Shown: positions 26,543-36,851 of the stretch, in pieces | Layout of the letters: each line of letters starts with the position of its first letter | Position numbering within the stretch: position 1 is the first letter of the stretch | Virus record (IMG/VR): IMGVR_UViG_3300049846_000562 | Span: 1 to 36,865 of that record | Direction: 5' to 3' (one strand) | Length of the DNA: 36,865 nucleotides | Source: a virus | Notes under the pieces: model-generated | Databases searched by the model: none | What the model saw: only the letters and a program-made list of their open reading frames with translations | Told to the model about the DNA's origin: nothing | Made by a program: the position numbers and the translations under genes

Positions 26543-26625
26543 TTTAACGGCTTGCACCCTTGCGCCCGTTGCCGCTCAAATGACAAGGCAACCAAATTGC
26601 GCAAGTGTGATTTTACAGGCTGGTG
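26543..26625 (+). repeat. Left-border hairpin of array 1 (degenerate attC-like)
   Basis: AACGGCTTG at 26546 starts a G+C-rich imperfect hairpin. CACCCTTGCGC (26555-26565) pairs with GCGCAAGTGTG (26599-26609), and GTTGCC (26568-26573) with GGCAAC (26587-26592). The near-repeated flanks CATAAAATTGAATTTAA and CATAAAATGAATTTTAA bracket it. It resembles the other joints but lacks a clear GTT end. One frame across it encodes a Cys-rich peptide, so the hairpin may be part of a decayed gene. Confidence 0.45.
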
Positions 26626-26658
26626 GCGCATAAAATGAATTTTAAAAACGAAATATAA

Positions 26659-27024
26659 ATGGAAGAAGAAAAACAAATTACAAGAGAAGAAAACCCCGCA
26701 TTTTTTAAGTTGTGGGATTTAAAATGTGTTCAGCGTTGGAAAGCCGAACAGAAACATTTAAAGGATTGGTATGCGTATGAGATTTACGCAAAGACCACTA
26801 AAGACTTAATAATGAATGTTTGGAATGGACAACACCCAGTTGAAAGCAATTGCAAGGAACACACTTGCAAAGCAGGAACAAGAGTAAGAGTGTGGATGGT
26901 TTCAAGATTTGGAGATGTGGGAGTTACCGACAACTTAAAAAATCCAAAAGGATATGATGTAAGGGGTTTAGATGCCGATGCTGATTTGACCGATTATGAA
27001 TTTATTGAGTTAAATCGTGCGTAG
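26659..27024 (+). CDS. Cassette gene, hypothetical 121-aa protein
   Basis: First gene of array 1. The helical start MEEEKQITREENPAFFKLWD is followed by an aromatic-rich segment (WKAEQKHLKDWYAYEIYAK), then CKEHTCKAGTRVRVWMVSRF, where CxxxxC with nearby His could bind metal, and a DVRGLDADADLTDYEFIELN end that looks like a strand pair. G+C is higher than in the phage genes. No family is recognised. The stop TAG at 27022-27024 is followed at once by the next junction, as is usual for cassette genes. Confidence 0.6.
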   Translation: MEEEKQITREENPAFFKLWDLKCVQRWKAEQKHLKDWYAYEIYAKTTKDLIMNVWNGQHPVESNCKEHTCKAGTRVRVWMVSRFGDVGVTDNLKNPKGYDVRGLDADADLTDYEFIELNRA

Positions 27025-27040
27025 GCAAACTATTACTGGC

Positions 27041-27068
27041 AACTATCGCTTACTTGCTGTTAGGTGCA
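27041..27068 (+). repeat. Short cassette junction between units 1 and 2
   Basis: AAC at 27041-27043 and GTTAGGT at 27059-27065 (a full match to GTTRRRY) flank only 15 nt. No strong stem is seen between them. The sequence TGCTGTTAGGTGCAGTGCTT (27055-27074) closely resembles the left border of array 2 (32010-32029), supporting a shared recombination end. Confidence 0.5.
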
Positions 27069-27140
27069 GTGCTTCTCACAAAATTTAAAAGATGGAAAAA
27101 TTCGGGGCTGTTAAAAACAAAATATTAAAAACAAAACACT

Positions 27141-27626
27141 ATGAAAACAATTAAAATATTTAAAGACAGTAATGAAAATTTATATGTTGAAACTGGCAAA
27201 GCCGAAGGGTTTATGGTAAGAATTTCCGATGGAACAAACCACGATGGAACAACTATTGGAAATTTTCATTTGGTTAAAGAAGTGAAATTATATAATACAG
27301 AAGTAATTCAAAACGAAAAAGAACAAGATAGATTAGAAGAAGCATTTTCCGCTGTGTGTAATCTCTTTTTTGCGACTGAAAAGGATAATTTTTCTCGATG
27401 TGGGTCATTCCACATTAAACCGTTCAATACTCATTGGGATAAAAAGACGGTGAAAGAAGTAATGTATCACGTAAAATTATACTTGGGAAGTTGGGTGATT
27501 CATCCAATGGAAGAAGCATTAAAAAAGGATAGGAATAAAATTAAAAGCTATGAGCAAAAAAGACACCGAGAGGCACAAAAAAGGAAAAAGGAATGGGAAG
27601 CAAGTTTGAAACGGAAAGCCAAATAG
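27141..27626 (+). CDS. Cassette gene, hypothetical 161-aa protein
   Basis: Sole gene of unit 2 in array 1. The N-terminal half is beta-rich (KTIKIFKDSNENLYVETGKA, EGFMVRISDGTNHDG), the middle has CNLFFATEKDNFSRCGSFHI, and the C terminus is a long basic helix (KRHREAQKRKKEWEASLKRK) suggesting nucleic-acid or membrane-surface binding. No family is recognised. An A-rich leader of about 80 nt separates it from the unit start. A 20-codon frame (27092-27154) overlaps its start and might be a leader peptide. It is only 12 nt from the unit end. Confidence 0.65.
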   Translation: MKTIKIFKDSNENLYVETGKAEGFMVRISDGTNHDGTTIGNFHLVKEVKLYNTEVIQNEKEQDRLEEAFSAVCNLFFATEKDNFSRCGSFHIKPFNTHWDKKTVKEVMYHVKLYLGSWVIHPMEEALKKDRNKIKSYEQKRHREAQKRKKEWEASLKRKAK

Positions 27627-27640
27627 CCCTTTTTAATTGC

Positions 27641-27736
27641 ACTTAACGTATCGGGGCTTTGCGTAGTAGCCCTTAGTAGAAACTTAAAATTAACCACGAC
27701 ACTTGATAGGGCTATTACGCAAAACCCTTGTTATGT
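27641..27736 (+). repeat. attC-like site between units 2 and 3 of array 1
   Basis: ACTTAAC (27641-27647, fits RYYYAAC) and GTTATGT (27730-27736) are the outer ends. Inside, 27654-27673 pairs with 27708-27727: 18 of 20 positions complementary plus a G-T wobble, with the core GGGCTTTGCGTAG. The AAC-side spacer is 6 nt and the GTT-side spacer 2 nt. The loop is 34 nt. This size and asymmetry match the other joints in array 2. Confidence 0.8.
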
Positions 27737-27754
27737 GCCGTTTTTATTCAGATT

Positions 27755-28231
27755 ATGACAGAAAAAAAAGTATTAGACGTTTGTTGTGGGCCAAAAGGAA
27801 TGTGGTTTGACAAACAAGACAAAAGAGCATTATTCCTTGACAAAAGGAGAGAAACGCACATTGACACATATCCTTGTGGAACAAAAACAAACATTATAGA
27901 CCCTGATATTATTGGAGATTTTACCGACATAAAACAGCCTGACAATTCATTTTGGCACGTTGTTTTTGACCCACCACATATTGAACAAATGAACGATAGC
28001 CAAATCACAAAGAAATATGGTTCTTTACAAGGTGATTGGCGTGAAATGATACGCAAAGGTTTTGAAGAATGTTTTAGAGTATTAAAACCTAACGGAACTC
28101 TTATTTTTAAATGGAATGAAGTAAAGTTTCCAGTAAAAGAAATTCTAAAACTTACAGATAAAAAACCTTTGTATGGTCATAAAAGCGGTATCAAAATGCA
28201 AACACATTGGATATGTTTTATAAAGGATTAG
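27755..28231 (+). CDS. Cassette methyltransferase, class I SAM fold
   Basis: Start chosen at ATG 27755 (158 aa). A TTG at 27728 in frame would lie across the cassette border. VLDVCCGPKGMWF (residues 6-18) is a SAM-binding motif I, and FDPPH (71-75) is a D-P-P-[YFHW] catalytic motif as in amino-methyltransferases acting on adenine or cytosine in nucleic acid. Then FRVLKPNGTLIFKWNEVK is the typical strand after the catalytic loop. The order motif I then DPPH, and the absence of a target-recognition domain, suggest a small DNA or RNA amino-methyltransferase. It is the anchor-proximal unit of array 1. Confidence 0.7.
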   Translation: MTEKKVLDVCCGPKGMWFDKQDKRALFLDKRRETHIDTYPCGTKTNIIDPDIIGDFTDIKQPDNSFWHVVFDPPHIEQMNDSQITKKYGSLQGDWREMIRKGFEECFRVLKPNGTLIFKWNEVKFPVKEILKLTDKKPLYGHKSGIKMQTHWICFIKD

Positions 28232-28251
28232 TGTCTGTCCTAAAATGGCAC

Positions 28252-28320
28252 ATAACATCTGAATATACGAAAGTTTATTACTCTTAAATAACTAATAATG
28301 AATACAATAGAAGTAAAATC
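28252..28320 (+). repeat. 69-bp direct repeat, copy 1 (array anchor)
   Basis: Identical over all 69 bases to 35935-36003. It begins ATAACATCTGAATATACG and runs through an ATG and seven further codons (MNTIEVKS). In both places the bases to the left are the end of a cassette array and those to the right are different phage sequences. It therefore marks a fixed array boundary. Confidence 0.97.
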
Positions 28321-28369
28321 TACGGAATTAAAAAGCTACGAGCCAATGCAGTTAAGACAACTAAAGTAA
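28298..28369 (+). CDS. 23-aa frame opened by the repeat, possible gene remnant
   Basis: ATG 28298 lies in the 69-bp repeat, and the first eight codons (MNTIEVKS) equal those of the 79-aa gene at 35981. The frame then reads TELKSYEPMQLRQLK and stops. It may be a truncated or chimeric copy, or a real micro-protein. The shared leader could also simply be a duplicated expression signal. Confidence 0.35.
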   Translation: MNTIEVKSTELKSYEPMQLRQLK

Positions 28370-28428
28370 TTAATCAATGTCATTTTTAATTGTTAAAAAA
28401 TTTTATTAGTATATTAAATAAATTATTA

Positions 28429-28436
28429 TACATTTG
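28429..28436 (+). promoter_or_regulatory. Candidate promoter of the replication operon
   Basis: TACATTTG matches TAnnTTTG in a 104-nt A/T-rich gap. A leader of about 37 nt with two AACAATTAAA-type repeats precedes ATG 28474. No clear -33 TTG is present at normal spacing. Confidence 0.5.
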
Positions 28437-28473
28437 CGTAAACAATTAAACAATTAAACAAAAACAAACAACT

Positions 28474-29001
28474 ATGACAAACACATTCCTACCGGAAAAC
28501 TACGAAGCCCCAAAAACAAATTCAAACTACATGAAATTTGAAAAAGGAGAAAACAGATTTAGGATTTTATCTCGTCCTATCATAGGATGGGAAGATTGGA
28601 CTGATGATAAAAAACCTGTACGATTCTTGCCAAATCAAAAGCCGGATAAACCAATTAACGCAAATAGACCTATTAAGTTCTTTTGGGCGATGGTAGTATT
28701 TAATTGGTTTAAAAATGATATTCAGATACTACAAATAACACAACGATCTATACAAGATTCAATAGAGAAGTTAGCTAAAGATTCCGATTGGGGTAATCCT
28801 TTCTTTTATGATATAAAGGTATCTCGTTCAGGAGATGGAATGGAAACTGAGTATACAGTTAATCCAGCCCCTAAAAAAGACTTACCAATAGAAGTTTATG
28901 CTTTATTTAAAGCAAAGCCAATTTACTTACCTGCACTATATCAGGGAGCAGACCCTTTTATTAATCATGGCGAGATAACACCTTTAAACGATATTTTCTA
29001 A
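28474..29001 (+). CDS. Probable single-stranded DNA-binding protein
   Basis: A 175-residue protein. The start NYMKFEKGENRFRILSRPII then GWEDWTDDKKPVRF is the opening seen in phage ssDNA-binding proteins of the gp2.5/gp32-like type in Bacteroidota phages. IKFFWAMVVFNW and QILQITQRSIQDSIEKLAKD, then SDWGNPFFYDIKVSRSGDGM and ETEYTVNPAPKKDLP, complete an OB-fold-like core. It is the first gene of the replication operon with its own promoter. The call rests on pattern memory and context rather than on catalytic residues. Confidence 0.6.
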   Translation: MTNTFLPENYEAPKTNSNYMKFEKGENRFRILSRPIIGWEDWTDDKKPVRFLPNQKPDKPINANRPIKFFWAMVVFNWFKNDIQILQITQRSIQDSIEKLAKDSDWGNPFFYDIKVSRSGDGMETEYTVNPAPKKDLPIEVYALFKAKPIYLPALYQGADPFINHGEITPLNDIF

Positions 29002-29096
29002 ACATTAACCGGAATCACAAATAATTTAAGACTGGAATAAATTATTAAAAGGGGGTAGAACTGACACTACTCCCTGATTCCACAAAACAAAAATTT

Positions 29097-29555
29097 ATGC
29101 ACCCTGAAACATTTGAACAAAGAATGGCAGAGGAATCAGTTGAAAGAGATTTACCTATTTTGCCTATACGACTAACAAAAGAATCTATTAATAATAATGC
29201 TCAACTATTATCGGAAAAATGGGATGAACCATTAGAGGCATATATAAGATTGAAAGCTATGAGAGACACCATTGATTTAGCTATGGATAAAATAAAAGGA
29301 CAAGCGAAAGAAGAAGCAATGAAATATCAAGGCGAGAATGATAAATGCGGTGCTAAGTTTAAATATCAGGAAGGCGCACGTACATTTGATTATTCATCAG
29401 ATGTTGTTTGGCAAAAACTAAAAGACCAAATAAAAGAAAGAGAAGATTTTTTGAAAGGATTGAAAAAAGAAATGGCAGATACCGAAACAGGAGAGATAGT
29501 ACAACCACCTATTGTTAAATACAAATCAGATTCAATCTTAATTACATTCAAATGA
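29097..29555 (+). CDS. Replication-region phage protein, 152 aa
   Basis: A helical, highly charged protein. The EAYIRLKAMRDTIDLAMDKI helix, then GAKFKYQEGARTFDYSSDVV and a coiled KDQIKEREDFLKGLKKEM segment, end in PPIVKYKSDSILITFK. This order recurs in phage early regions without an agreed role. It overlaps the next start by 4 nt. A 95-nt gap separates it from the SSB-like gene; I see no hairpin in it. Confidence 0.6.
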   Translation: MHPETFEQRMAEESVERDLPILPIRLTKESINNNAQLLSEKWDEPLEAYIRLKAMRDTIDLAMDKIKGQAKEEAMKYQGENDKCGAKFKYQEGARTFDYSSDVVWQKLKDQIKEREDFLKGLKKEMADTETGEIVQPPIVKYKSDSILITFK

Positions 29556-29728
29556 CTGAAAGAAAAAAACTAAAAAAAGAACTTGCAAGGTTAAAACGAT
29601 ACCGCAGTAATCTTCCACGCCTAATTTCTTGCAGTTTAGTTTACGGAGATAAAACATATACAAACGAAGATTTAATAATGATAGATAGATTTATTGAAGG
29701 GCTAAAAAGAAAAATAAACACCTTATGA
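29552..29728 (+). CDS. Hypothetical protein, 58 aa
   Basis: A short frame with ATGA overlaps at both ends (29552-29555 and 29725-29728), which strongly suggests translation. It reads MTERKKLKKELARLKRYRSN, then LPRLISCSLVYGDKTYTNED and a basic helical end. It is basic and probably binds nucleic acid or a partner of the replication complex. Unknown family. Confidence 0.7.
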   Translation: MTERKKLKKELARLKRYRSNLPRLISCSLVYGDKTYTNEDLIMIDRFIEGLKRKINTL

Positions 29729-30108
29729 CACGCGAAGAACTAAACAAAAATCTAAACAAGATTAAAGAAAGTTTAGACACAGAAATACCGGCCGGAGATA
29801 TAGATGGTATTGAGGGAAAAATGTTATCTCTATGCTCTTTAATGGGTTTAAGTGCTGAATGTTACAAGCAGGCGCAGTATTTAGTTTTAATGGAGCAAGG
29901 AAAAGCAATTAAGCGTATAAAAAGGTATGAGCCAAACATACAGCCATCTACTTTAAAGCTACAATTAGAGGCAGAATTAGCAGAGGAAAAAATGACATTC
30001 GACTATGCAGACCGGCTAAACTCAGCTATAACACATTGCGTTGATGGTTTAAGGACTTCTATATCAAAATATAAAGAAGAACTATCAAATTCAATTTTAC
30101 AAAAATAA
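29725..30108 (+). CDS. Hypothetical helical protein, 127 aa
   Basis: All-helical and charged: EELNKNLNKIKESLDTEI, MLSLCSLMGLSAECYKQAQY, then EAELAEEKMTFDYADRLNSA and a C-terminal helix. It is translationally coupled to the previous gene and 2 nt from the next. It could be an accessory protein of replication or recombination. No motif identifies it. Confidence 0.6.
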   Translation: MTREELNKNLNKIKESLDTEIPAGDIDGIEGKMLSLCSLMGLSAECYKQAQYLVLMEQGKAIKRIKRYEPNIQPSTLKLQLEAELAEEKMTFDYADRLNSAITHCVDGLRTSISKYKEELSNSILQK

Positions 30109-30110
30109 GT

Positions 30111-30461
30111 ATGCAATTAACATTTTTTGAAAACATTGACTGTTTAGTTAAAGATATGGTAAATAATTTAACTATCCGACATAATGCAAACGGCAACCAA
30201 AAGCAATTAGATGACAATAGACTGCATTTTACACAGCAAGCGCAATGGGTATTAGAACAACTATTAAAAGGAAGGGATATAAGCGGATTAACAGCATGGA
30301 AAGAGTTTAATATTCAAGATACAAGGGCGCGTATATTCTCACTTAGGAAAGCCGGATTATTAATATCTGAGCGAAGAATAGAAGGCGCACATGGATCGAA
30401 GGAATGGTATATGGATAAACAGCAAATAGAAATAAATAAAAAATTGTTAGGTATGTTATAA
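30111..30461 (+). CDS. Winged-helix DNA-binding protein
   Basis: A 116-residue protein. From residue 40, FTQQAQWVLEQLLKGRDISG then LTAWKEFNIQDTRARIFSLR and KAGLLISERRIEGAHGSKEW form a helix, helix, recognition helix and beta wing, as in phage replication-region winged-helix proteins. The N-terminal 35 residues are a linker. It sits directly before the structured leader and the DUF4373 gene and so could bind the inverted repeat at 30481. That is a testable inference. Confidence 0.72.
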   Translation: MQLTFFENIDCLVKDMVNNLTIRHNANGNQKQLDDNRLHFTQQAQWVLEQLLKGRDISGLTAWKEFNIQDTRARIFSLRKAGLLISERRIEGAHGSKEWYMDKQQIEINKKLLGML

Positions 30462-30476
30462 TTATTTATATATTTG
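30444..30476 (+). promoter_or_regulatory. Promoter of the DUF4373-DnaC operon
   Basis: TTG at 30444-30446 and TATATTTG at 30469-30476 are 22 nt apart, within the normal range. Transcription would start about 30481-30484, at the first base of the leader stem. The -33 element lies in the end of the winged-helix gene. Confidence 0.65.
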
Positions 30477-30480
30477 TAAT

Positions 30481-30582
30481 GCAGTACCGAAATATGAAAT
30501 TAAAATTTTGCCCGAAAGAAATATGTCCTTTGTTCTTCCTGAACATCGGTACTGCCATATTTTTAGTAGGGCAACTTTTTTT
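30481..30582 (+). promoter_or_regulatory. Structured 5' leader with possible pseudoknot
   Basis: GCAGTACCGA (30481-30490) and TCGGTACTGC (30546-30555) are perfect 10-bp complements enclosing a 55-nt loop. In the loop TTGCCC (30508-30513) can pair with GGGCAA (30569-30574), which lies 8 nt before ATG 30583. Both pairings together form a pseudoknot that would cover the initiation region. The stem begins at the predicted transcript start. It could be a translational switch, a binding site for the winged-helix protein, or an origin element. Confidence 0.55.
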
Positions 30583-31326
30583 ATGAAAAAAGATTCCTAT
30601 TATTTCTCCCATGATGCAAGTGCTCAGGATGATCCTAAATGTATTTTATTGATTGAACAATTAGGAATGGAGGGATATGGTATTTATTGGGCTTTAGTTG
30701 AATTATTAAGGCAGGAAAAGGATTATAAATTACCATTAATAATATTACCGGGACTTGCAAGAAGGTGGAACACAGCACACGAGAAGGTAAAAGTAGTAAT
30801 TTCTTCATTTGATTTATTCTGCATTGAAGATGATAAATTCTTTTCGTTGCGTCTAATTAGGTCAATGGAAGAATATAATAATCAAAGACTTAGATTAAGT
30901 CAAGCAGGGCTTAAGGGTGGCTTAAGGTCTGCTGAAGCAAGGCTCAAGCAACCCTCAAGCATTAAAGGAAAGGAAAGTAAAATAAAGGAAAGTAAAGGAA
31001 ATATTATAAATAAAGAAAATTCAGAAAATGAAAAAAATCCTTTTTTTTATTTGGGAGGTTTAAAAGTTTCATCTAAGCCATCTGAAGTTTATGAAAAAAG
31101 CCATAAGTTGCGCCTTGATAATTTATTGATGACACAGTTGCGCGGAATAGATAAACAAAAGCTATTTGAAGAATTTGATTCTAAATATCAATATACAGAA
31201 TTTGTTGATGAGAAACACTTTCATAACGCAATACTATCAACAGGAAAACAAATACTAAAACAAAATTTTAATGCAAACAATAGAGGAAGGGATAAAGTCG
31301 CCACCGATTTCTCCGGTAATTTCTAA
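30583..31326 (+). CDS. DUF4373-type replication protein (Lin1244/Lin1753-like N terminus)
   Basis: Start placed at ATG 30583, giving MKKDSYYFSHDASAQDDPKC, the family's usual opening. In-frame TTG 30508 and ATG 30523 would translate the structured leader and are not favoured. QLGMEGYGIYWALVELLRQE is the other signature. Residues 110-145 carry SQAGLKGGLRSAEARLKQ, typical of these proteins. A Lys/Asn-rich linker and a helical C terminus follow. The family is common beside DnaC-like loaders in phages of Bacteroidota and Firmicutes and is thought to act like replication initiators (DnaD-like). Overlaps the next gene by 56 nt. Confidence 0.82.
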   Translation: MKKDSYYFSHDASAQDDPKCILLIEQLGMEGYGIYWALVELLRQEKDYKLPLIILPGLARRWNTAHEKVKVVISSFDLFCIEDDKFFSLRLIRSMEEYNNQRLRLSQAGLKGGLRSAEARLKQPSSIKGKESKIKESKGNIINKENSENEKNPFFYLGGLKVSSKPSEVYEKSHKLRLDNLLMTQLRGIDKQKLFEEFDSKYQYTEFVDEKHFHNAILSTGKQILKQNFNANNRGRDKVATDFSGNF

Positions 31327-31921
31327 AAAAATACTTGAAAGGATAACTGAAGAAGGTAAAAAAACAGTTTCAAATTTCAGTATAAAACCTTTACAGGAGG
31401 AATATTATATAAATCTATATATATATTTTTCGGGTAGCGATAAAAGTAAATACGACTTAAACAAAGGGATTATGATATTAGGAGATGTAGGCACCGGAAA
31501 AACACTATCCATGCAGATCATGCAACGCCTATTCAGAAACTTTGGTATTGTAAATACAAGGTACATTATACGTGATTTTTTGAATGAACAAAGGTCAGGA
31601 ACTATAATAGACTTATATGGCCGTGAATCATTCAAAAGAAGAATAGGAAATTCATTAGATAGAAACAAACCTATTAATTGGTGCTTTGATGATTTAGGAT
31701 TGGAAAATGTAGAAGCAAAGAACTACGGAAACAACATAGCAGTAATGGAGGAGATATTACTTGACAGATATGAGATGTATTGTGCTTATGGAATGAAAAC
31801 ATACGGAACTACAAATTTAAATGTAGACATGATAGAAAAAAGTTATGGTAAAAGAGTAAGAGATAGATTCAGGCAAATGATGAACATGGTAATATTATCG
31901 GGTGAATCTAATAGAAAATAG
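31271..31921 (+). CDS. DnaC-like helicase loader ATPase
   Basis: A 216-residue AAA+ protein. It has Walker A GDVGTGKT (residues 71-78), Walker B WCFDDLG, sensor I YGTTNLN and the arginine finger region KRVRDRFRQMMN. This is the DnaC/IstB family, which loads replicative helicase. The protein is shorter than E. coli DnaC but complete in motifs. Paired with the DUF4373 initiator-like protein it forms the replication start module. No replicative helicase is in the window, so it may use the host's. Array 2 begins about 90 nt after its stop. Confidence 0.88.
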   Translation: MQTIEEGIKSPPISPVISKKILERITEEGKKTVSNFSIKPLQEEYYINLYIYFSGSDKSKYDLNKGIMILGDVGTGKTLSMQIMQRLFRNFGIVNTRYIIRDFLNEQRSGTIIDLYGRESFKRRIGNSLDRNKPINWCFDDLGLENVEAKNYGNNIAVMEEILLDRYEMYCAYGMKTYGTTNLNVDMIEKSYGKRVRDRFRQMMNMVILSGESNRK

Positions 31922-31958
31922 TGGCTATCATTCTTCACAAAATAAAAATAAAGTAAAT

Positions 31959-32177
31959 ATGGAACACGAAAATTTGAATACAGATGAAACCGCCAATAGC
32001 GATTTAGGTGCTGTTAGGCGTAGTGCTTTTACTTGGTGGAACTCAATGACATTTGAGGAACAATTTTATAAAACAATAGCTTGGTTAAAGAGCCAAAACC
32101 GAAATACAACCGAAAGGCATCTACACCATTTAACTGGTAGGGAAATTCAGCAGATTTATGAACTGCATTACGCCTAA
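31959..32177 (+). CDS. Cassette-border gene, 72-aa protein, frame crosses the border
   Basis: Chosen start is ATG 31959. An earlier in-frame ATG at 31902 lies inside the loader gene. The frame runs through the left cassette border at 32013 (GTTAGGCGTAGTGC), so the first 18 residues are encoded outside the unit and the rest (VRRSAFTWWNSMTFEEQFYK and HHLTGREIQQIYELH) within it. The WWNS...LTGREI pattern looks like a conserved small protein. The stop TAA (32175-32177) is part of the unit's AAC end. Native starts inside the unit could be ATG 32046. Function unknown. Confidence 0.6.
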   Translation: MEHENLNTDETANSDLGAVRRSAFTWWNSMTFEEQFYKTIAWLKSQNRNTTERHLHHLTGREIQQIYELHYA

Positions 32178-32280
32178 CGAAAAGGGCTTGGCGATAGTTT
32201 TAAAAGGGCTTGCAGGAATGTTCGGGTTAAGCACAAAGCTAATTAGCCCTTTTAAAATTTCGCTAAGCTGGTATTATAGG
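32172..32280 (+). repeat. attC-like site, units 1/2 of array 2
   Basis: GCCTAAC (32172-32178) fits RYYYAAC. Arms 32185-32210 and 32245-32269 pair strongly, including a perfect TTTTAAAAGGGCT block and a GGCTTGGCGA / TCGCTAAGCT end. The AAC-side spacer is 6 nt; the other is 3 nt plus a bulge. The crossover base is A (32273) instead of G, so the site reads ATTATAG and may be less active. Confidence 0.8.
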
Positions 32281-32329
32281 AATGTAAATTTTTCTATCAT
32301 TTTTTTTCTCTGTGTCTTAAATTATTAAT

Positions 32330-33205
32330 ATGAAGTTAGTAGAATTATTTTCAGGTATAGGTGGATTTGCAAAAGGGCTTTCTGATGCAGGTATTGAAAT
32401 TACAGACCACCAATTTAGTGAGGTTAATAAACACGCAATCGCAAACTATAAATACAATTATGAAAATGCAAAATACATTGGAGCAGTTGAAGATGTTTCC
32501 AGAATCAACGGAGCAGACATTATCACTTTCGGAAGTCCGTGCCAAAATTTTAGTTTACTTGGAAACCAACAAGGACTTGAAGGAAGTAAAAGCGTTCTTA
32601 TCGGGGAAGCAATTAGGATTATTGATGAAAGCAGACCACGCATTTTTATTTGGGAAAATGTTAAAGGAGCTTTCTCCACAAATGATAGCACAGATTTTTG
32701 GGCAGTCGTTCAAAGGTTTGCCAACATTGGGGGATATAGATTGCAATGGCAACTGTGTAATTCAAATTGGTTTTTACCCCAAAACAGAGAACGAATATTC
32801 CTTGTCGGAATATGTGAGGCAATCGGAGGAGAATGTTTCCCTATCACGGGAGAAAGCAGAAAAGATAAAATCAATGCTTCAATTAGAGCCATTAGTTACA
32901 CAAGAGATGCAAAAGGGAAGTTATTAGGATATAACTACCGAAAACATTTTAATACAATACATACTTCAACGGGTAGCGGTGGGAACACTGACCAATACCT
33001 AAATAGTTATGGAGAGATTAGAAGATTAGGAATAAGAGAATGTGAAGCTTTGCAGGGGTTTGATAGAGATTGGACAAGAAAAGGAAATTACGATGGTGAA
33101 ATAAAAATTATTCCATTAACAGAAAGGCGAAAGCTCGTAGGTAATGCAGTAACAACAAATGTAGTAAAAGCAATAGGAACTAAAATTTTAGAAATATGGA
33201 ACTGA
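32330..33205 (+). CDS. DNA (cytosine-5) methyltransferase
   Basis: A 291-residue m5C methylase with all main motifs: I LFSGIGGFAKGL (6-17), IV GSPCQNFSLLGNQQGLEG with catalytic Cys71, VI WENVKG (108-113), VIII QNRERIFLVG, IX RECEALQGFDRDW and X LVGNAVTTNVV. The target-recognition region is short. No cognate restriction gene is adjacent, so it is a solitary methylase, probably protecting phage DNA from host restriction. It is the main gene of unit 2. A 188-codon overlapping frame from 32361 is a shadow. Confidence 0.95.
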   Translation: MKLVELFSGIGGFAKGLSDAGIEITDHQFSEVNKHAIANYKYNYENAKYIGAVEDVSRINGADIITFGSPCQNFSLLGNQQGLEGSKSVLIGEAIRIIDESRPRIFIWENVKGAFSTNDSTDFWAVVQRFANIGGYRLQWQLCNSNWFLPQNRERIFLVGICEAIGGECFPITGESRKDKINASIRAISYTRDAKGKLLGYNYRKHFNTIHTSTGSGGNTDQYLNSYGEIRRLGIRECEALQGFDRDWTRKGNYDGEIKIIPLTERRKLVGNAVTTNVVKAIGTKILEIWN

Positions 33206-33405
33206 AATACAAAGTATCAATTAAAATAGGTAAAGACACCTATAAAACAACTGTGGTTACATCAACGGACTATCCTGATGCAGCGGATTTAAATGATGAA
33301 ATTGATGACCAAATTTTAGAATACTTGCATACAGAAATAAGTTATGCAATAAGAGAGGATATTAAAAAGAAGCAGGAACTCTCTGTGCCCTCTTTAAAAA
33401 AATGA
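33196..33405 (+). CDS. Small partner protein of the m5C methylase unit, 69 aa
   Basis: It starts 10 nt inside the methylase gene and belongs to the same cassette. It reads MELKYKVSIKIGKDTYKTTV, then an acidic DAADLNDEIDDQILEYLHTE helix and a Lys-rich end: beta strands followed by a helix. An accessory role to the methylase is possible but unsupported by motifs. It is followed 23 nt later by the unit end. Confidence 0.6.
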   Translation: MELKYKVSIKIGKDTYKTTVVTSTDYPDAADLNDEIDDQILEYLHTEISYAIREDIKKKQELSVPSLKK

Positions 33406-33421
33406 TGGAAAAATTTATTTC

Positions 33422-33523
33422 CTATAACGGATTAGGGCTTTGCGAAGAAGCCAATAAAAAAATAAGAAGATGAAAAATTTACTCGATGAAACAAAAGGCT
33501 TTTTTGCAAAGCCATTGTTAACG
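33422..33523 (+). repeat. attC-like site, units 2/3 of array 2
   Basis: Outer ends CTATAAC (33422-33428) and GTTAACG (33517-33523). GGCTTTGCGAAGAAGCC (33436-33452) pairs with GGCTTTTTTGCAAAGCC (33497-33513), 15 of 17 plus wobble. Spacers are 7 and 3 nt. The loop contains the ATG of the next gene. Confidence 0.82.
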
Positions 33524-33724
33524 GCTGGTGTTATCGAATGTTCTCATACTAAAGTTAGTGATATTTGGTACACCGATAATCTGCCTTTTATTACAGGTGA
33601 TAGCAGTAGATTTTATACTGGATATTGTGAACATTGTGAGAAAATGGTATATGGAAGAACTGGCAGAATTAGAATAAGGTGGAATTATGATAGAAACAAA
33701 ACATTCGATGACACTTGCCGTTAA
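33470..33724 (+). CDS. Cassette gene with start codon inside the attC-like loop
   Basis: An 84-residue frame. The first 16 residues are encoded by the loop and right arm of the hairpin. The unit itself begins at residue 17 (LTAGVIECSHTKVSD). The C-x-H and later CEHCEKMV cysteines form a likely zinc ribbon, followed by RTGRIRIRWNYDR. No ATG lies between the unit start and the conserved cysteines, so translation probably relies on the ATG supplied by the joint, or on a non-ATG start. The stop TAA lies in the unit's AAC end (33722-33724). Confidence 0.55.
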   Translation: MKNLLDETKGFFAKPLLTAGVIECSHTKVSDIWYTDNLPFITGDSSRFYTGYCEHCEKMVYGRTGRIRIRWNYDRNKTFDDTCR

Positions 33725-33850
33725 CGTTCAGGACTTACCGAAGGCGGGGGATTTTAACCACTAAACTAAATACGAAGAGATGATTTTCAAACAAGCACAA
33801 ATGTTCATACGAGGCAGAGAACCCCCGCTTTTGGTAAGCTATTGTTGTAG
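33719..33850 (+). repeat. attC-like site, units 3/4 of array 2
   Basis: Ends CGTTAAC (33719-33725) and GTTGTAG (33844-33850). Arms CTTACCGAAGGCGGGGG (33734-33750) and CCCCCGCTTTTGGTAAG (33822-33838) pair along their length with two G-T wobbles. Spacers are 8 and 5 nt; the loop is about 70 nt, the longest of the set. Confidence 0.82.
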
Positions 33851-33886
33851 GTAGTAGGGATTTCACGCACCTAACTTTCTACGAAG

Positions 33887-34962
33887 CACGAAAGAAAAAA
33901 TTTAAGAAAAACGAATCATGGGCAAATCATTAAATCATTTAAACATGAAGTATTACCTATTAGCAATCGTGGCAATCGCAATCTTAGTTGGTTGCTTTTG
34001 GCTATTCAACCACGTAAACGCTTGGATAGGCATAATTGCATTTTTGCTTAGTGCAGGCGGTATAGTTCAATTCATTATTAACGAAGTAAAAAAAACAAAC
34101 AACAAAATGAAAAAAGTAACCTACATTTTATTTGGAGCAGTAATGCTCCTGACACTCGCAAGCTGCGAAAGAGTTGCACCTAACTATTATGGTGTGCTTA
34201 TGGAAAACTACGGTAAAAGCGGGAAAGGCGATTACTCAAAACAACAAGGGAGAGTTAACATAATGGCTCCCGGCACAGAGTTGTTTCAAGTGCCAGCATT
34301 TGAGCAAAGAGCCGAATTTACAAACGAGGACGGCACTAAAAGAGTGCTACAATTAAAAGCGGCAGACAATACGGCTTTTACAGCCAACCCGCTTTACAGC
34401 TACAAAGCACAGGAGGGAAAAGTAGTTGATTTAGTTTTCCAAAACGCCCGACTTGGGAGTGGTGATGACTTTATGAGAAACTTGGAGAACAACATACTTG
34501 AACCGCACATTTACGATTTAATAAAAGAGGAAAGCCGTAAATACACAACCGATACACTAATGGCAAGCGGTGGGTCGCTAAAGTTTGAAGAAAGGGTGCA
34601 AGAACTTGTAAAGAAATCATTTGATGAAAAAGGACTTGACCTGATTACATTCTCTGCGAACCTTGACTTTAGCGATAAAGTGAAAGCGAAGATTGACAGC
34701 CGAAACGAAGTGAACACAAACATTAGTGTTTTAGACCAACAAATAGCTGAACAGAAAAAGCGGAACGAGTTAGCCGAACTGAAAGCACAAGAGAACCTGA
34801 TACTTTCAAAAGGAATTACACAGCAACTTTTGCAACAGCAATTTATTGAAAAATGGAATGGAGCAACACCGCTTTATGGCAATATGCCTGTAACCTTAAT
34901 GAAGAAAGAATAATCATTAAATCATTAGCGGGTGGGGTTTTTCTTAAATTTTTTCTCTCACG
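33887..34962. repeat. Nested repeats flanking the SPFH-like gene in unit 4
   Basis: GAAAAAATTTAAGAAAAA (33894-33911) is repeated inverted and perfectly at 34938-34955. AATCATTAAATCATT (33925-33939) is repeated directly at 34912-34926. TCTACGAAGCAC (33878-33889) is repeated directly at 34969-34980. These lie inside the complementary cassette ends, so the gene is wrapped by several layers of repeats, perhaps from an older insertion. Confidence 0.8.
33918..34913 (+). CDS. Band 7/SPFH-like lipoprotein, possibly two joined genes
   Basis: A 331-residue frame. Residues 10-54 hold two hydrophobic segments (MKYYLLAIVAIAILVGC and WIGIIAFLLSAGGIVQFII). At Met64 (34107) a second signal begins: MKKVTYILFGAVMLLTLASC, a lipobox with Cys83. 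Then comes VAPNYYGVLMENYGKSG and a domain with VNIMAPGTELFQVPAFEQRA, LKFEERVQELVKKSFDEKGL and a long coiled tail (AEQKKRNELAELKAQENLIL), the layout of prohibitin/SPFH proteins. Translation may start at 34107, leaving 33918-34106 as a separate small membrane protein fused in frame. Codon use is richer in G+C than in the backbone. The role may be a membrane scaffold or defence-related factor. Confidence 0.65.
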   Translation: MGKSLNHLNMKYYLLAIVAIAILVGCFWLFNHVNAWIGIIAFLLSAGGIVQFIINEVKKTNNKMKKVTYILFGAVMLLTLASCERVAPNYYGVLMENYGKSGKGDYSKQQGRVNIMAPGTELFQVPAFEQRAEFTNEDGTKRVLQLKAADNTAFTANPLYSYKAQEGKVVDLVFQNARLGSGDDFMRNLENNILEPHIYDLIKEESRKYTTDTLMASGGSLKFEERVQELVKKSFDEKGLDLITFSANLDFSDKVKAKIDSRNEVNTNISVLDQQIAEQKKRNELAELKAQENLILSKGITQQLLQQQFIEKWNGATPLYGNMPVTLMKKE

Positions 34963-34994
34963 AAACTATCTACGAAGCACCTCACCCCTATTGC

Positions 34995-35087
34995 CTACAA
35001 CGGTATCGGGCTTGGCGAAGGTGGGCTTGTAGGATGCTCAAAGTTAGCAGGATGTGTCTGCCCACTTTTGCCAAACCCGTGTTATAT
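34995..35087 (+). repeat. attC-like site, units 4/5 of array 2
   Basis: Ends CTACAAC (34995-35001) and GTTATAT (35081-35087). CGGGCTTGGCGAAGGTGGGC (35007-35026) pairs with GCCCACTTTTGCCAAACCCG (35060-35079), 17 of 20 plus wobbles. Spacers are 5 and 1 nt, the loop 33 nt. This is the best-formed example. Confidence 0.85.
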
Positions 35088-35155
35088 GAAGTGCCGACTT
35101 ATTTACGATAAAGCCCAATTGGAACACTAAACAGAAAAACAAAAAGAAAAAAAGC

Positions 35156-35860
35156 GTGGGAAATAAAATACATAAACAAGATTGCCTTGAATTTTTAAGA
35201 GCAACACCTGATGAAACTTTTGATTTGATAGTTACATCACCGCCTTACAACTATGGTGGATTTAGTAGAAATGGCAGAGTAAAAAGCTATGATACCTATT
35301 CAGATGATATGCCTATTGAAGATTATCAAGATTGGATTGGTGATATACTGAAAGAATGTGCAAGGACTTTAAAACAAGGCGGTGCAATGTATTGGAATCA
35401 TAAAGGCAAATTTGAAGATTTTAGGTTTAAACATTGCTTTTGGATAATAGACAAATGTCCACTTTATTTTGCACAGCATATTGTTTGGAAATATCCTGCA
35501 TCGCCTGATGTTGCTAAAATAAAGTGGTATCCGAGAAAGGAAGATGTGTTCTATTTTACAAAAGGAAAGCCAAAATACTTTAATGAAGATATGGCAAGGA
35601 TAACAGATATATGGGAAATAAACCATCAAGAAGGCAACGAACACCCTGCACCATTTCCAATATCATTTGCTGAAAGGTGTATTTTGGCATCAAGTGAAAA
35701 AGGCGATTTGGTTTATGACCCTTTTATGGGAAGCGGAACTACTGCTGTTGCTTGTGTTAAAAATGATAGGCAATACATTGGAACTGAAATAAGCGAAAAG
35801 TATATTACAATGGCTAATAAAAAAATTGAAGGATATGCAAACCAAATTAGAATGTTTTAA
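35156..35860 (+). CDS. DNA methyltransferase, beta class (N4-cytosine / N6-adenine)
   Basis: A 234-residue enzyme starting at GTG 35156 (MGNKIHKQDCLEFLRATPDE is the usual family opening). Motif IV VTSPPYNYGG (residues 26-35) precedes motif I DPFMGSGTT (about 188-196), the order of the beta class. GAMYWNHKGKFEDF and WKYPASPDVAKIKWYPRKED make up the middle. Family members methylate N4 of cytosine or N6 of adenine. No restriction partner is visible, which suggests self-protection against host restriction. It is the anchor-proximal unit of array 2, as another methylase is in array 1. Confidence 0.92.
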   Translation: MGNKIHKQDCLEFLRATPDETFDLIVTSPPYNYGGFSRNGRVKSYDTYSDDMPIEDYQDWIGDILKECARTLKQGGAMYWNHKGKFEDFRFKHCFWIIDKCPLYFAQHIVWKYPASPDVAKIKWYPRKEDVFYFTKGKPKYFNEDMARITDIWEINHQEGNEHPAPFPISFAERCILASSEKGDLVYDPFMGSGTTAVACVKNDRQYIGTEISEKYITMANKKIEGYANQIRMF

Positions 35861-35934
35861 AAGTGCGGTGGCTTTTTTCTTTTTGTTTTTCCTTCACGGA
35901 ACTTCAATTGAAAACGGTCAGCAAGGCATTTCAT

Positions 35935-36003
35935 ATAACATCTGAATATACGAAAGTTTATTACTCTTAAATAACTAATAATGAATACAATAGAAGTAAA
36001 ATC
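35935..36003 (+). repeat. 69-bp direct repeat, copy 2 (array anchor)
   Basis: Identical to 28252-28320. On its left the cassette end GGCATTTCATATAAC runs into it, and on its right it continues into the 79-aa gene at 35981. This copy looks like the intact original because the gene that it starts is longer. Confidence 0.97.
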
Positions 36004-36384: not shown

Positions 36385-36617
36385 CAACGAATAATACTAA
36401 AAAATACTACCGGAACAGTATGTATTTTCAAGACGAACTTAAAATAAAACAAATAGAAGATGATTTTTTTAACAACCAATTAACACCAAAACAAATATCT
36501 GAAAACTATAAGATAAATTATCATTTTTGGCGAGAAGGCAAATGTTGGCACATTCTCTGTCTTAAATTACCGCTAACATCTGTATTGTCGAAAGTTTTGT
36601 TATACTTAACTAATTGA
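36381..36617 (+). CDS. Hypothetical protein, 78 aa, possible HTH
   Basis: Coupled to the previous gene (ATGA). The segment IKQIEDDFFNNQLTPKQISE followed by NYKINYHFWREGKCW resembles the helix-turn-helix of small phage DNA-binding proteins: a turn around LTPKQISENY and a helix after it. The C terminus is hydrophobic. The family is not recognised. Confidence 0.5.
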   Translation: MTTNNTKKYYRNSMYFQDELKIKQIEDDFFNNQLTPKQISENYKINYHFWREGKCWHILCLKLPLTSVLSKVLLYLTN

Positions 36618-36638: not shown

Positions 36639-36851
36639 ATGAATATTGAAATTTATAAATTCAAACATACTGATGAAATATATTCCGACATGAAAGGAGT
36701 ATTTTATAGATTCAAAGATGATAAACCTATACCTATATGTTATCAAAATGGCAGAATCGCGATACGAGATAGAAATAAATTCTATGGAATAAAACGACTA
36801 AGAAAAAACGCATATAAAACAACAAAAGAACTAATAGATATACCATTTTAA
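36639..36851 (+). CDS. Hypothetical protein, 70 aa
   Basis: A basic protein, MNIEIYKFKHTDEIYSDMKG then VFYRFKDDKPIPICYQNGRI and YGIKRLRKNAYKTTKELIDI, ending in PF. Strands followed by a basic helix suggest a small nucleic-acid-binding fold. It resembles the 79-aa gene at 35981 in plan. Unknown function. Confidence 0.55.
   Translation: MNIEIYKFKHTDEIYSDMKGVFYRFKDDKPIPICYQNGRIAIRDRNKFYGIKRLRKNAYKTTKELIDIPF

Follow-up and report, generated by a model that had tools for sequence, protein, structure and literature searches.

Integron-like gene cassettes that carry methyltransferases have already been described in phages (Qi et al., 2023; PMC9892861). The clusters of attC sites lacking integrases (CALINs) in that study lie in virulent phages, notably Polaribacter phage P12002L, and are likewise integrase-less cassettes with DNA methyltransferases. 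In P12002L, attC2 recombined with attI1 under IntI1, on the bottom strand only, and attC1 did not (PMC9892861). The present analysis concerns two cassette arrays in the IMG/VR virus record IMGVR_UViG_3300049846_000562, whose whole length of 36,865 nucleotides (nt) was analyzed and is called the window here. Because phage cassettes of this type are published, the finding as worded in a first-pass annotation of the window is not a first. These arrays are very probably integrase-less integron cassette arrays in a Bacteroidota-type phage, each docked at an attI-like site, with an IntI-related clade of recombinases that does not have the I2 insertion as the recombinase.

P12002L also holds a unit of the kind found here (30952-31119, 167 nt), with inverted ends and on the gene strand. 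Its matches to the covariance model R1, which is introduced below, are weak (E about 1). In the available part of the paper of Qi et al., attI sites are reported in temperate or inactive prophages only, the genes of P12002L are noted to run in ‘divergent directions’, and neither a systematic gene inversion nor a recombinase without I2 is described (PMC9892861).

Other known systems share some of these features. Sedentary chromosomal integrons have an attI site, attC sites, and a recombinase gene that is divergent from a long array. In the present data, Chryseobacterium sp. Leaf394 and a metagenome-assembled genome (MAG) of the Chitinophagaceae show this arrangement. They differ from the present system, which has a recombinase without I2, an attI of the form AAC-N10-ACGCAA, and phage cassettes with inverted genes. 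The recombinases share the catalytic region of tyrosine recombinases with IntI (TIGR02249), XerA, XerC, and XerD, and their clade is next to IntI in the tree. Unlike IntI, they score below the TIGR02249 cut-off and have no I2 insertion, and unlike Xer, they are associated with cassette arrays. CTXphi and the integrative mobile elements exploiting Xer (IMEX), which use host XerCD at phage-borne dif-like sites, are also mobile elements with no recombinase that carry a target site for one of the host. However, the phage site found here receives gene cassettes, and there is no sign of integration by the phage itself. According to IntegronFinder 2.0, complete integrons are few in Bacteroidetes (PMC9024848).

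A literature search with subscription papers and preprints outside its scope found no paper on inverted phage cassettes or on an integron recombinase without I2. As far as the searched literature shows, four features appear to be new. These are the attI-like array termini, the inverted genes, the I2-less recombinases, and viral cassettes that are rich in DNA modification as opposed to the defense systems found in bacterial arrays.

Cassette units and attC hairpins

The window encodes terminase, portal, major capsid, and tail proteins, and replication proteins that include SSB and a DnaC-like protein. The phage context that had been claimed for the arrays is thus confirmed. Relatives of the attC sites indicate that the host is probably a member of the Bacteroidota.

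Seven units (TT...AAC), A to G, make up the arrays at the positions first proposed. Each unit has inverted ends of its own. Over 14 nt, the two ends of one unit match at 9-13 positions (mean 11.7), and ends taken from different units match at a mean of 6.8 and a maximum of 10. The true pairing, in which the R'' of each cassette pairs with its own R', is the sole one of 5040 assignments to reach the observed total. Such ends could be thought to belong to small transposons or to elements like miniature inverted-repeat transposable elements (MITEs), and units D, E, F, and G do possess long inner inverted ends. In these four, inverted sequence continues significantly past the first 10 nt (0 of 300 shuffles each); none of significance was found in A, B, and C by the same shuffle test. 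Transposon copies would all have the same ends, whereas these are unit-specific, as the first-pass annotation maintained, and the units share a hairpin family and attI-like termini. The transposon model is scarcely credible and was rejected on the unit-specific ends.

The inner inverted sequence of D to G (32274-35939) is itself unit-specific and up to about 70 nt long, and F has an internally flipped segment. Long inner inverted ends were considered as a general feature of the family and dropped, since the median own-end match across the family is only 14 nt.

The units are joined by five hairpins, which are named for the units on either side. Folded as single-stranded DNA, AB (z -3.1), CD (z -3.5), and FG (z -2.9) outperform shuffled sequences, and DE does so weakly (z -1.4). 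A pattern derived from three window hairpins matches three times in the window and never in shuffled sequence. It also matches at least 119 viral stretches and 56 stretches of the genome_contigs set, nearly all from genomes or MAGs of Bacteroidota, Chlorobi, or Ignavibacteria. The covariance model R1 was built from 34 sites of this hairpin family, including AB, DE, and FG, with CD and EF left out, and its stem contains compensatory changes. R1 finds all five window hairpins, CD (E=1e-4) and EF (E=3e-5) among them. Thus, the proposal that the joining hairpins are an attC-type family, with the layout R''-L''-loop-L'-R', holds. A search of Rfam gave no attC match. In genomes, R1 identified 134 sites in the 56 loci. 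It also revealed long arrays, one with at least nine sites in Chryseobacterium sp. Leaf394 (contig C15) and one in the Chitinophagaceae MAG, where more than 30 sites extend over about 95 kb. In 79 phage loci with a recombinase there are 132 attC matches. Every one of them is on the strand of the recombinase gene and, with a single exception, they lie upstream of it.

The cassettes also change neighbors. The protein of unit B is 96% identical in the viral contig L105, where it has a different neighbor and a different flank. The ends, the hairpin family, this exchange, and the absence of a PF00589 recombinase from the window together agree with the original idea of integron-type cassettes in a phage without an integrase. 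The features of the two arrays are as follows.

26543-26625, plus strand: degenerate attC hairpin at the distal (left) end of array 1; poor R' box, L'' AACGGCTTGCACCCTTGCGC, L' GCGCAAGTGTGA, followed by a start-like box TTACAGGCTGG; weak fold (z -0.66), missed by R1
26659-27024, plus strand: open reading frame (ORF) of the degenerate first unit; 121 amino acids, no Pfam match
27060-27647, plus strand: unit A; gene 27141-27626 of unknown function; left half of its hairpin missing, as read from the sequence
27639-27738, plus strand: attC hairpin AB, of unit B; R1 78.6 bits (training sequence); linked to the downstream start box in relatives
27731-28256, plus strand: unit B; DNA methyltransferase gene 27728-28231, PHROG 954
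32014-32178, plus strand: unit C; its gene begins before the unit, at 31960 or 31902; hairpin without its left half, likewise
32170-32281, plus strand: attC hairpin CD, of unit D; R1 31.5 bits, outside the training set
32274-33428, plus strand: unit D; C5-cytosine methyltransferase 32330-33205 (PF00145) and small ORF 33196-33405; inverted ends of about 34 nt
33420-33525, plus strand: attC hairpin DE, of unit E; training sequence; holds the start codon of the unit E ORF (33470)
33518-33725, plus strand: unit E; ORF 33470-33724 of unknown function; inverted ends of about 26 nt
33717-33852, plus strand: attC hairpin EF, of unit F; R1 34.3 bits, outside the training set; fold no better than shuffles
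33845-35001, plus strand: unit F; SPFH/band-7-like lipoprotein gene 33918-34913, PHROG 200
34993-35089, plus strand: attC hairpin FG, of unit G; R1 73.6 bits (training sequence)
35082-35939, plus strand: unit G; N6/N4 DNA methyltransferase 35156-35860, PF01555

Relatives of the phage that were retrieved through the capsid protein share structural genes only, so a clean empty site for the window arrays is not readable. A helicase-loader query found no relatives, nor did a methyltransferase query in genome_contigs. The lipoprotein of unit F is 52-61% identical to proteins of Bacteroides LoVEphage and related phages. In the locus L291, an element with a tyrosine recombinase lies at the GTT of an attC hairpin, and six copies of this recombinase are present in one Chitinophagales genome. 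This element, IS91-like partner included (by inspection), was considered as part of the system and set aside, as it looks like an unrelated insertion. Loci L263 and L267 (JAHEYD010000008.1) are filed under a Candidatus Nitrosotalea (archaeal) MAG. They contain phage cassettes of the Bacteroidota type and a phage DNA polymerase and are probably misbinned.

attI-like sites

A site that the first-pass annotation overlooked is repeated at 28253, 35936, and 36574 and does not occur in shuffles. It forms the array terminus. Both arrays of the window end at AACATCTGAATATACGAAAG (28254 and 35937), and a third copy is at 36575.

28253-28276, plus strand: attI-like site 1, right-hand terminus of array 1; TAACATCTGAATATACGAAAGTTT
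35936-35959, plus strand: attI-like site 2, right-hand terminus of array 2; within the 5' leader of the phage ORF 35981-36220
36574-36597, plus strand: attI-like site 3, with no array; preceded by the R''-like sequence ATTACCGCTAAC, perhaps a relic; within the 5' leader of ORF 36639-36851

The motif can be written AAC-N10-ACG[CA]A. By itself, a looser form shows no strong enrichment in the window (4 matches, 1.1 expected), and the exact pattern has no matches in the viral_contigs set. In four Bacteroidota genomes, a tyrosine recombinase gene adjoins the array end, which has the form R''-AAC-N10-ACG, with the sequences AACACCCAAATATACGCAAT (L296), AACTCACAAATATACGCAAC (L297), AACACTGTTATTTACGGCAC (L298), and AACACTTAAATATACGCAAT (L299). 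Setting aside array ends that run on into AACG leaves 71, of which 32 have CG[CA]A at offset 14; at no other offset from 3 to 39 do more than two have it. The window sites therefore appear to be attI-like by homology to recombinase-adjacent sites. Each array would dock at one of these sites, within a 5' leader that belongs to a small phage ORF, and the third site has no array.

The site is part of a 72-nt direct repeat in the window. This repeat was considered as a phage promoter or 5' leader only, and the idea was dropped. Although it does lie in a leader, it matches the recombinase-adjacent sites, so attI is the better reading. An attI-like site also lies 45-143 nt before a homologue of ORF 35981 or ORF 36639 in the related phage G002 and in contigs L193, L145, and L187. 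In G002, L145, and L193 the spacing is 45-57 nt. Since the arrangement of site and small ORF recurs in these phage sequences, the landing site is a conserved part of phage architecture. Another conserved site (AACTATnATATATA) was found upstream of the recombinase in 40 of 42 phage loci with a loose pattern.

These observations bear on the proposal of Qi et al. for phage CALINs, as given in the available part of their paper (PMC9892861). In that case the arrays would be cassette fragments captured by illegitimate or homologous recombination, inert and with no dedicated docking site. The window does lack a recombinase and has both the 72-nt direct repeat and degenerate left ends. However, both arrays stop exactly at a site that matches the recombinase-adjacent sites of four bacteria, the arrangement with the small ORF recurs in other phage contigs, and cassettes change neighbors. 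Passive capture is thus improbable, and docking at an attI-like site is the preferred reading.

Polarity and gene orientation

The first-pass annotation placed the crossover at G/TT on the top strand, which would give each hairpin to the unit upstream of it. This polarity was not upheld. In a comparison of 174 hairpins, pairs with a likeness above 90% agree in the 9 nt downstream of the hairpin (identity 0.81, as opposed to 0.50 in unlike pairs) and not in the 9 nt upstream (0.47 and 0.45). The hairpin therefore goes with the unit downstream of it, which places the crossover at AA/C on the top strand (G/TT on the bottom strand). It follows that every gene in the window is inverted relative to its attC. 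The attC lies at the 5' end of the gene in seven of seven window units, rather than 3' of the gene as in a canonical cassette. Read on the minus strand, the arrays have the polarity of bacterial integrons, with attI (...CGTATATTCAGATG/TT) followed by cassettes that each end in an attC hairpin.

The same orientation is found in other phages. In bacterial arrays, 54 cassettes are canonical (attC 3' of the gene) and one is reverse. Viral contigs retrieved with the attC pattern contain 126 inverted and two canonical cassettes, and the arrays beside phage-encoded recombinases contain 73 and four, respectively. Fisher's test of the bacterial arrays against the latter (54:1 canonical vs 73:4 inverted) gave 5e-31, and a value of 8e-43 was also obtained. 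Other genome_contigs loci add 14 canonical cassettes. There are also 18 inverted cassettes in genome_contigs, all on contigs of about 44 kb or less and one, under an archaeal MAG, with a phage DNA polymerase. For these reasons they are likely to be misbinned phage contigs. On the evidence of sequence, gene inversion is systematic in phage cassettes, and the rule extends to over a hundred viral sequences besides the window.

Inverted insertion is known at a low rate for class 1 integrons. Canonical host cassettes could have been inserted backwards by top-strand recombination, and the phage pool would be a product of inverted insertion. The genes do point toward attI in all window units, and top-strand activity is reported in the available part of PMC9892861. 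However, attC, attI, and the recombinase have the same relative polarity in phages and bacteria, and only the gene is flipped inside the cassette. This kept polarity largely refutes backward insertion, which was rejected as very improbable. Because the genes are inverted in their cassettes, they run in the same direction as the surrounding phage genes. The attC may also serve as the 5' leader of the cassette ORF, for in 47 of 150 viral cassettes it contains the start codon (ATG) of that ORF (at 33470 in the window, for example).

Array-associated recombinases

No PF00589 recombinase is encoded in the window, a linear record that may be incomplete or a fragment, and no intI gene with I2 is next to attI as it would be in a complete integron. 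A recombinase is also absent from 13 related contigs, some of them 31-37 kb long. As the window does not encode the enzyme, the cassettes are probably moved by one from the host or from a co-infecting phage. This enzyme would be a tyrosine recombinase of an IntI-related Bacteroidota clade without I2.

The first-pass annotation looked to an IntI-type recombinase in hosts or related phages. IntI-related enzymes do stand beside arrays in bacteria and in phages, but they have no I2, which it missed. TIGR02249 exceeded its cut-off in only two of 49 genomes, and most others gave a two-piece match that skips about positions 181-238. The recombinases beside the arrays L297, L298, and L299 and that of a large phage contig (L136) align with a gap where the true IntI of L272 has the I2 insertion. 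Their best match is NCBIfam NF040815, ‘site-specific tyrosine recombinase/integron integrase’. Array-associated recombinases score 145-208 bits with TIGR02249, whose curated cut-off is 265. In the tree, which took in one true IntI, they form a clade with 96% support that excludes IntI and XerC/D, and the phage enzymes form a subclade with 100% support. The nearest solved structures are a XerC-like protein (4a8e), XerA (5hxy), and IntI4 (2a3v).

The recombinase of the window arrays could instead be encoded by a part of the same phage genome that is missing from the contig. I2-less recombinases of the phage group occur in at least 182 further viral stretches, many of them beside arrays and some with T4-like genes, and the record is, as noted, linear. 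However, the 13 related contigs have no such gene, and the attI-like sites of the window look like the bacterial form (ACG[CA]A), not the phage form (ATATATA). A missing phage gene is therefore unlikely, though it keeps some weight beside supply by a host or co-infecting phage.

Related integrases are present in Polaribacter phage Freya_10 (L406, 3560-4160) and Cellulophaga phage Ingeline_1 (L407, 5820-6030), with R''-AACACCC sites just before the integrase gene. Freya has an apparent single inverted cassette. The sites of both phages were read by eye and are unmatched by R1.

Cassette functions

Units B, D, and G encode DNA methyltransferases. The 70 longest of the non-redundant proteins from viral cassettes include 39 with matches to DNA-modification families, if one family is assumed for each protein. 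These are N6_N4_Mtase (22), MT-A70 (7), Mom (4), C5 MTase (3), Dam, D12, and a TET-associated glycosyltransferase. The 53 proteins from bacterial cassettes are of diverse kinds and include one N6_N4 MTase. The bacterial cassettes nearest to attI include defense genes. One encodes a cyclase of the cyclic oligonucleotide-based antiphage signaling system (CBASS) with a 2TM effector (L299, 2172-3665). Another encodes a defense-associated reverse transcriptase (DRT; RT_UG39) with a PrimPol-like partner (L297, 7069-10104). The main use proposed for the phage cassettes is as an exchangeable stock of DNA-modification genes that may protect the phage from restriction by the host.

Assessment of the proposed system

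Several points weigh against this interpretation. The left ends of both arrays are degenerate, as read from the sequence. The EF hairpin does not fold better than shuffles (z +0.35). Three of the five window attC sites were training sequences of R1. The orientation counts for phages take in a few near-identical loci (L304/L370 and L332/L333, for example), and those for bacteria come from about five genomes. The recombinases are assigned to the arrays by gene neighborhood. The I2 helix is described as specific to IntI and linked to single-strand recombination, and it is regarded as enabling IntI to use single-stranded hairpins (PMC7790495), so an I2-less enzyme that acts on attC would be unexpected. 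Finally, phages with their own recombinase have cassettes that are mostly small and of unknown function, with DNA modification in only two of 56. The bias is therefore not general, and the proposed role may cover only part of the pool.

The first-pass annotation was right in its core idea and wrong on polarity, and the family as a whole is more unusual than it claimed. We lean slightly toward a broader view, in which one integron system, driven by I2-less, IntI-related recombinases, is common to Bacteroidota and their phages. Phages would keep a pool of cassettes with flipped genes. Some large phages would carry a full integron, and smaller ones would have attI only and borrow the enzyme. Bacterial arrays would supply anti-phage defenses, and part of the phage pool would supply DNA-modification counter-defenses, both through one recombination machinery.

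Significance

If this view is true, phages use integrons as a regular and widespread device for exchange of DNA-modification genes, and cassettes are not occasional passengers. Gene inversion would then provide an easy way to tell phage cassettes from bacterial ones by sequence. Recombinases without I2 might explain why tools that seek IntI report few complete integrons in Bacteroidota. Isolated flavobacterial phages, namely Freya, Ingeline, and P12002L, make the system testable. An I2-less recombinase that acts on attC hairpins would, if confirmed, change the accepted account of how single-strand recombination evolved in integron integrases.

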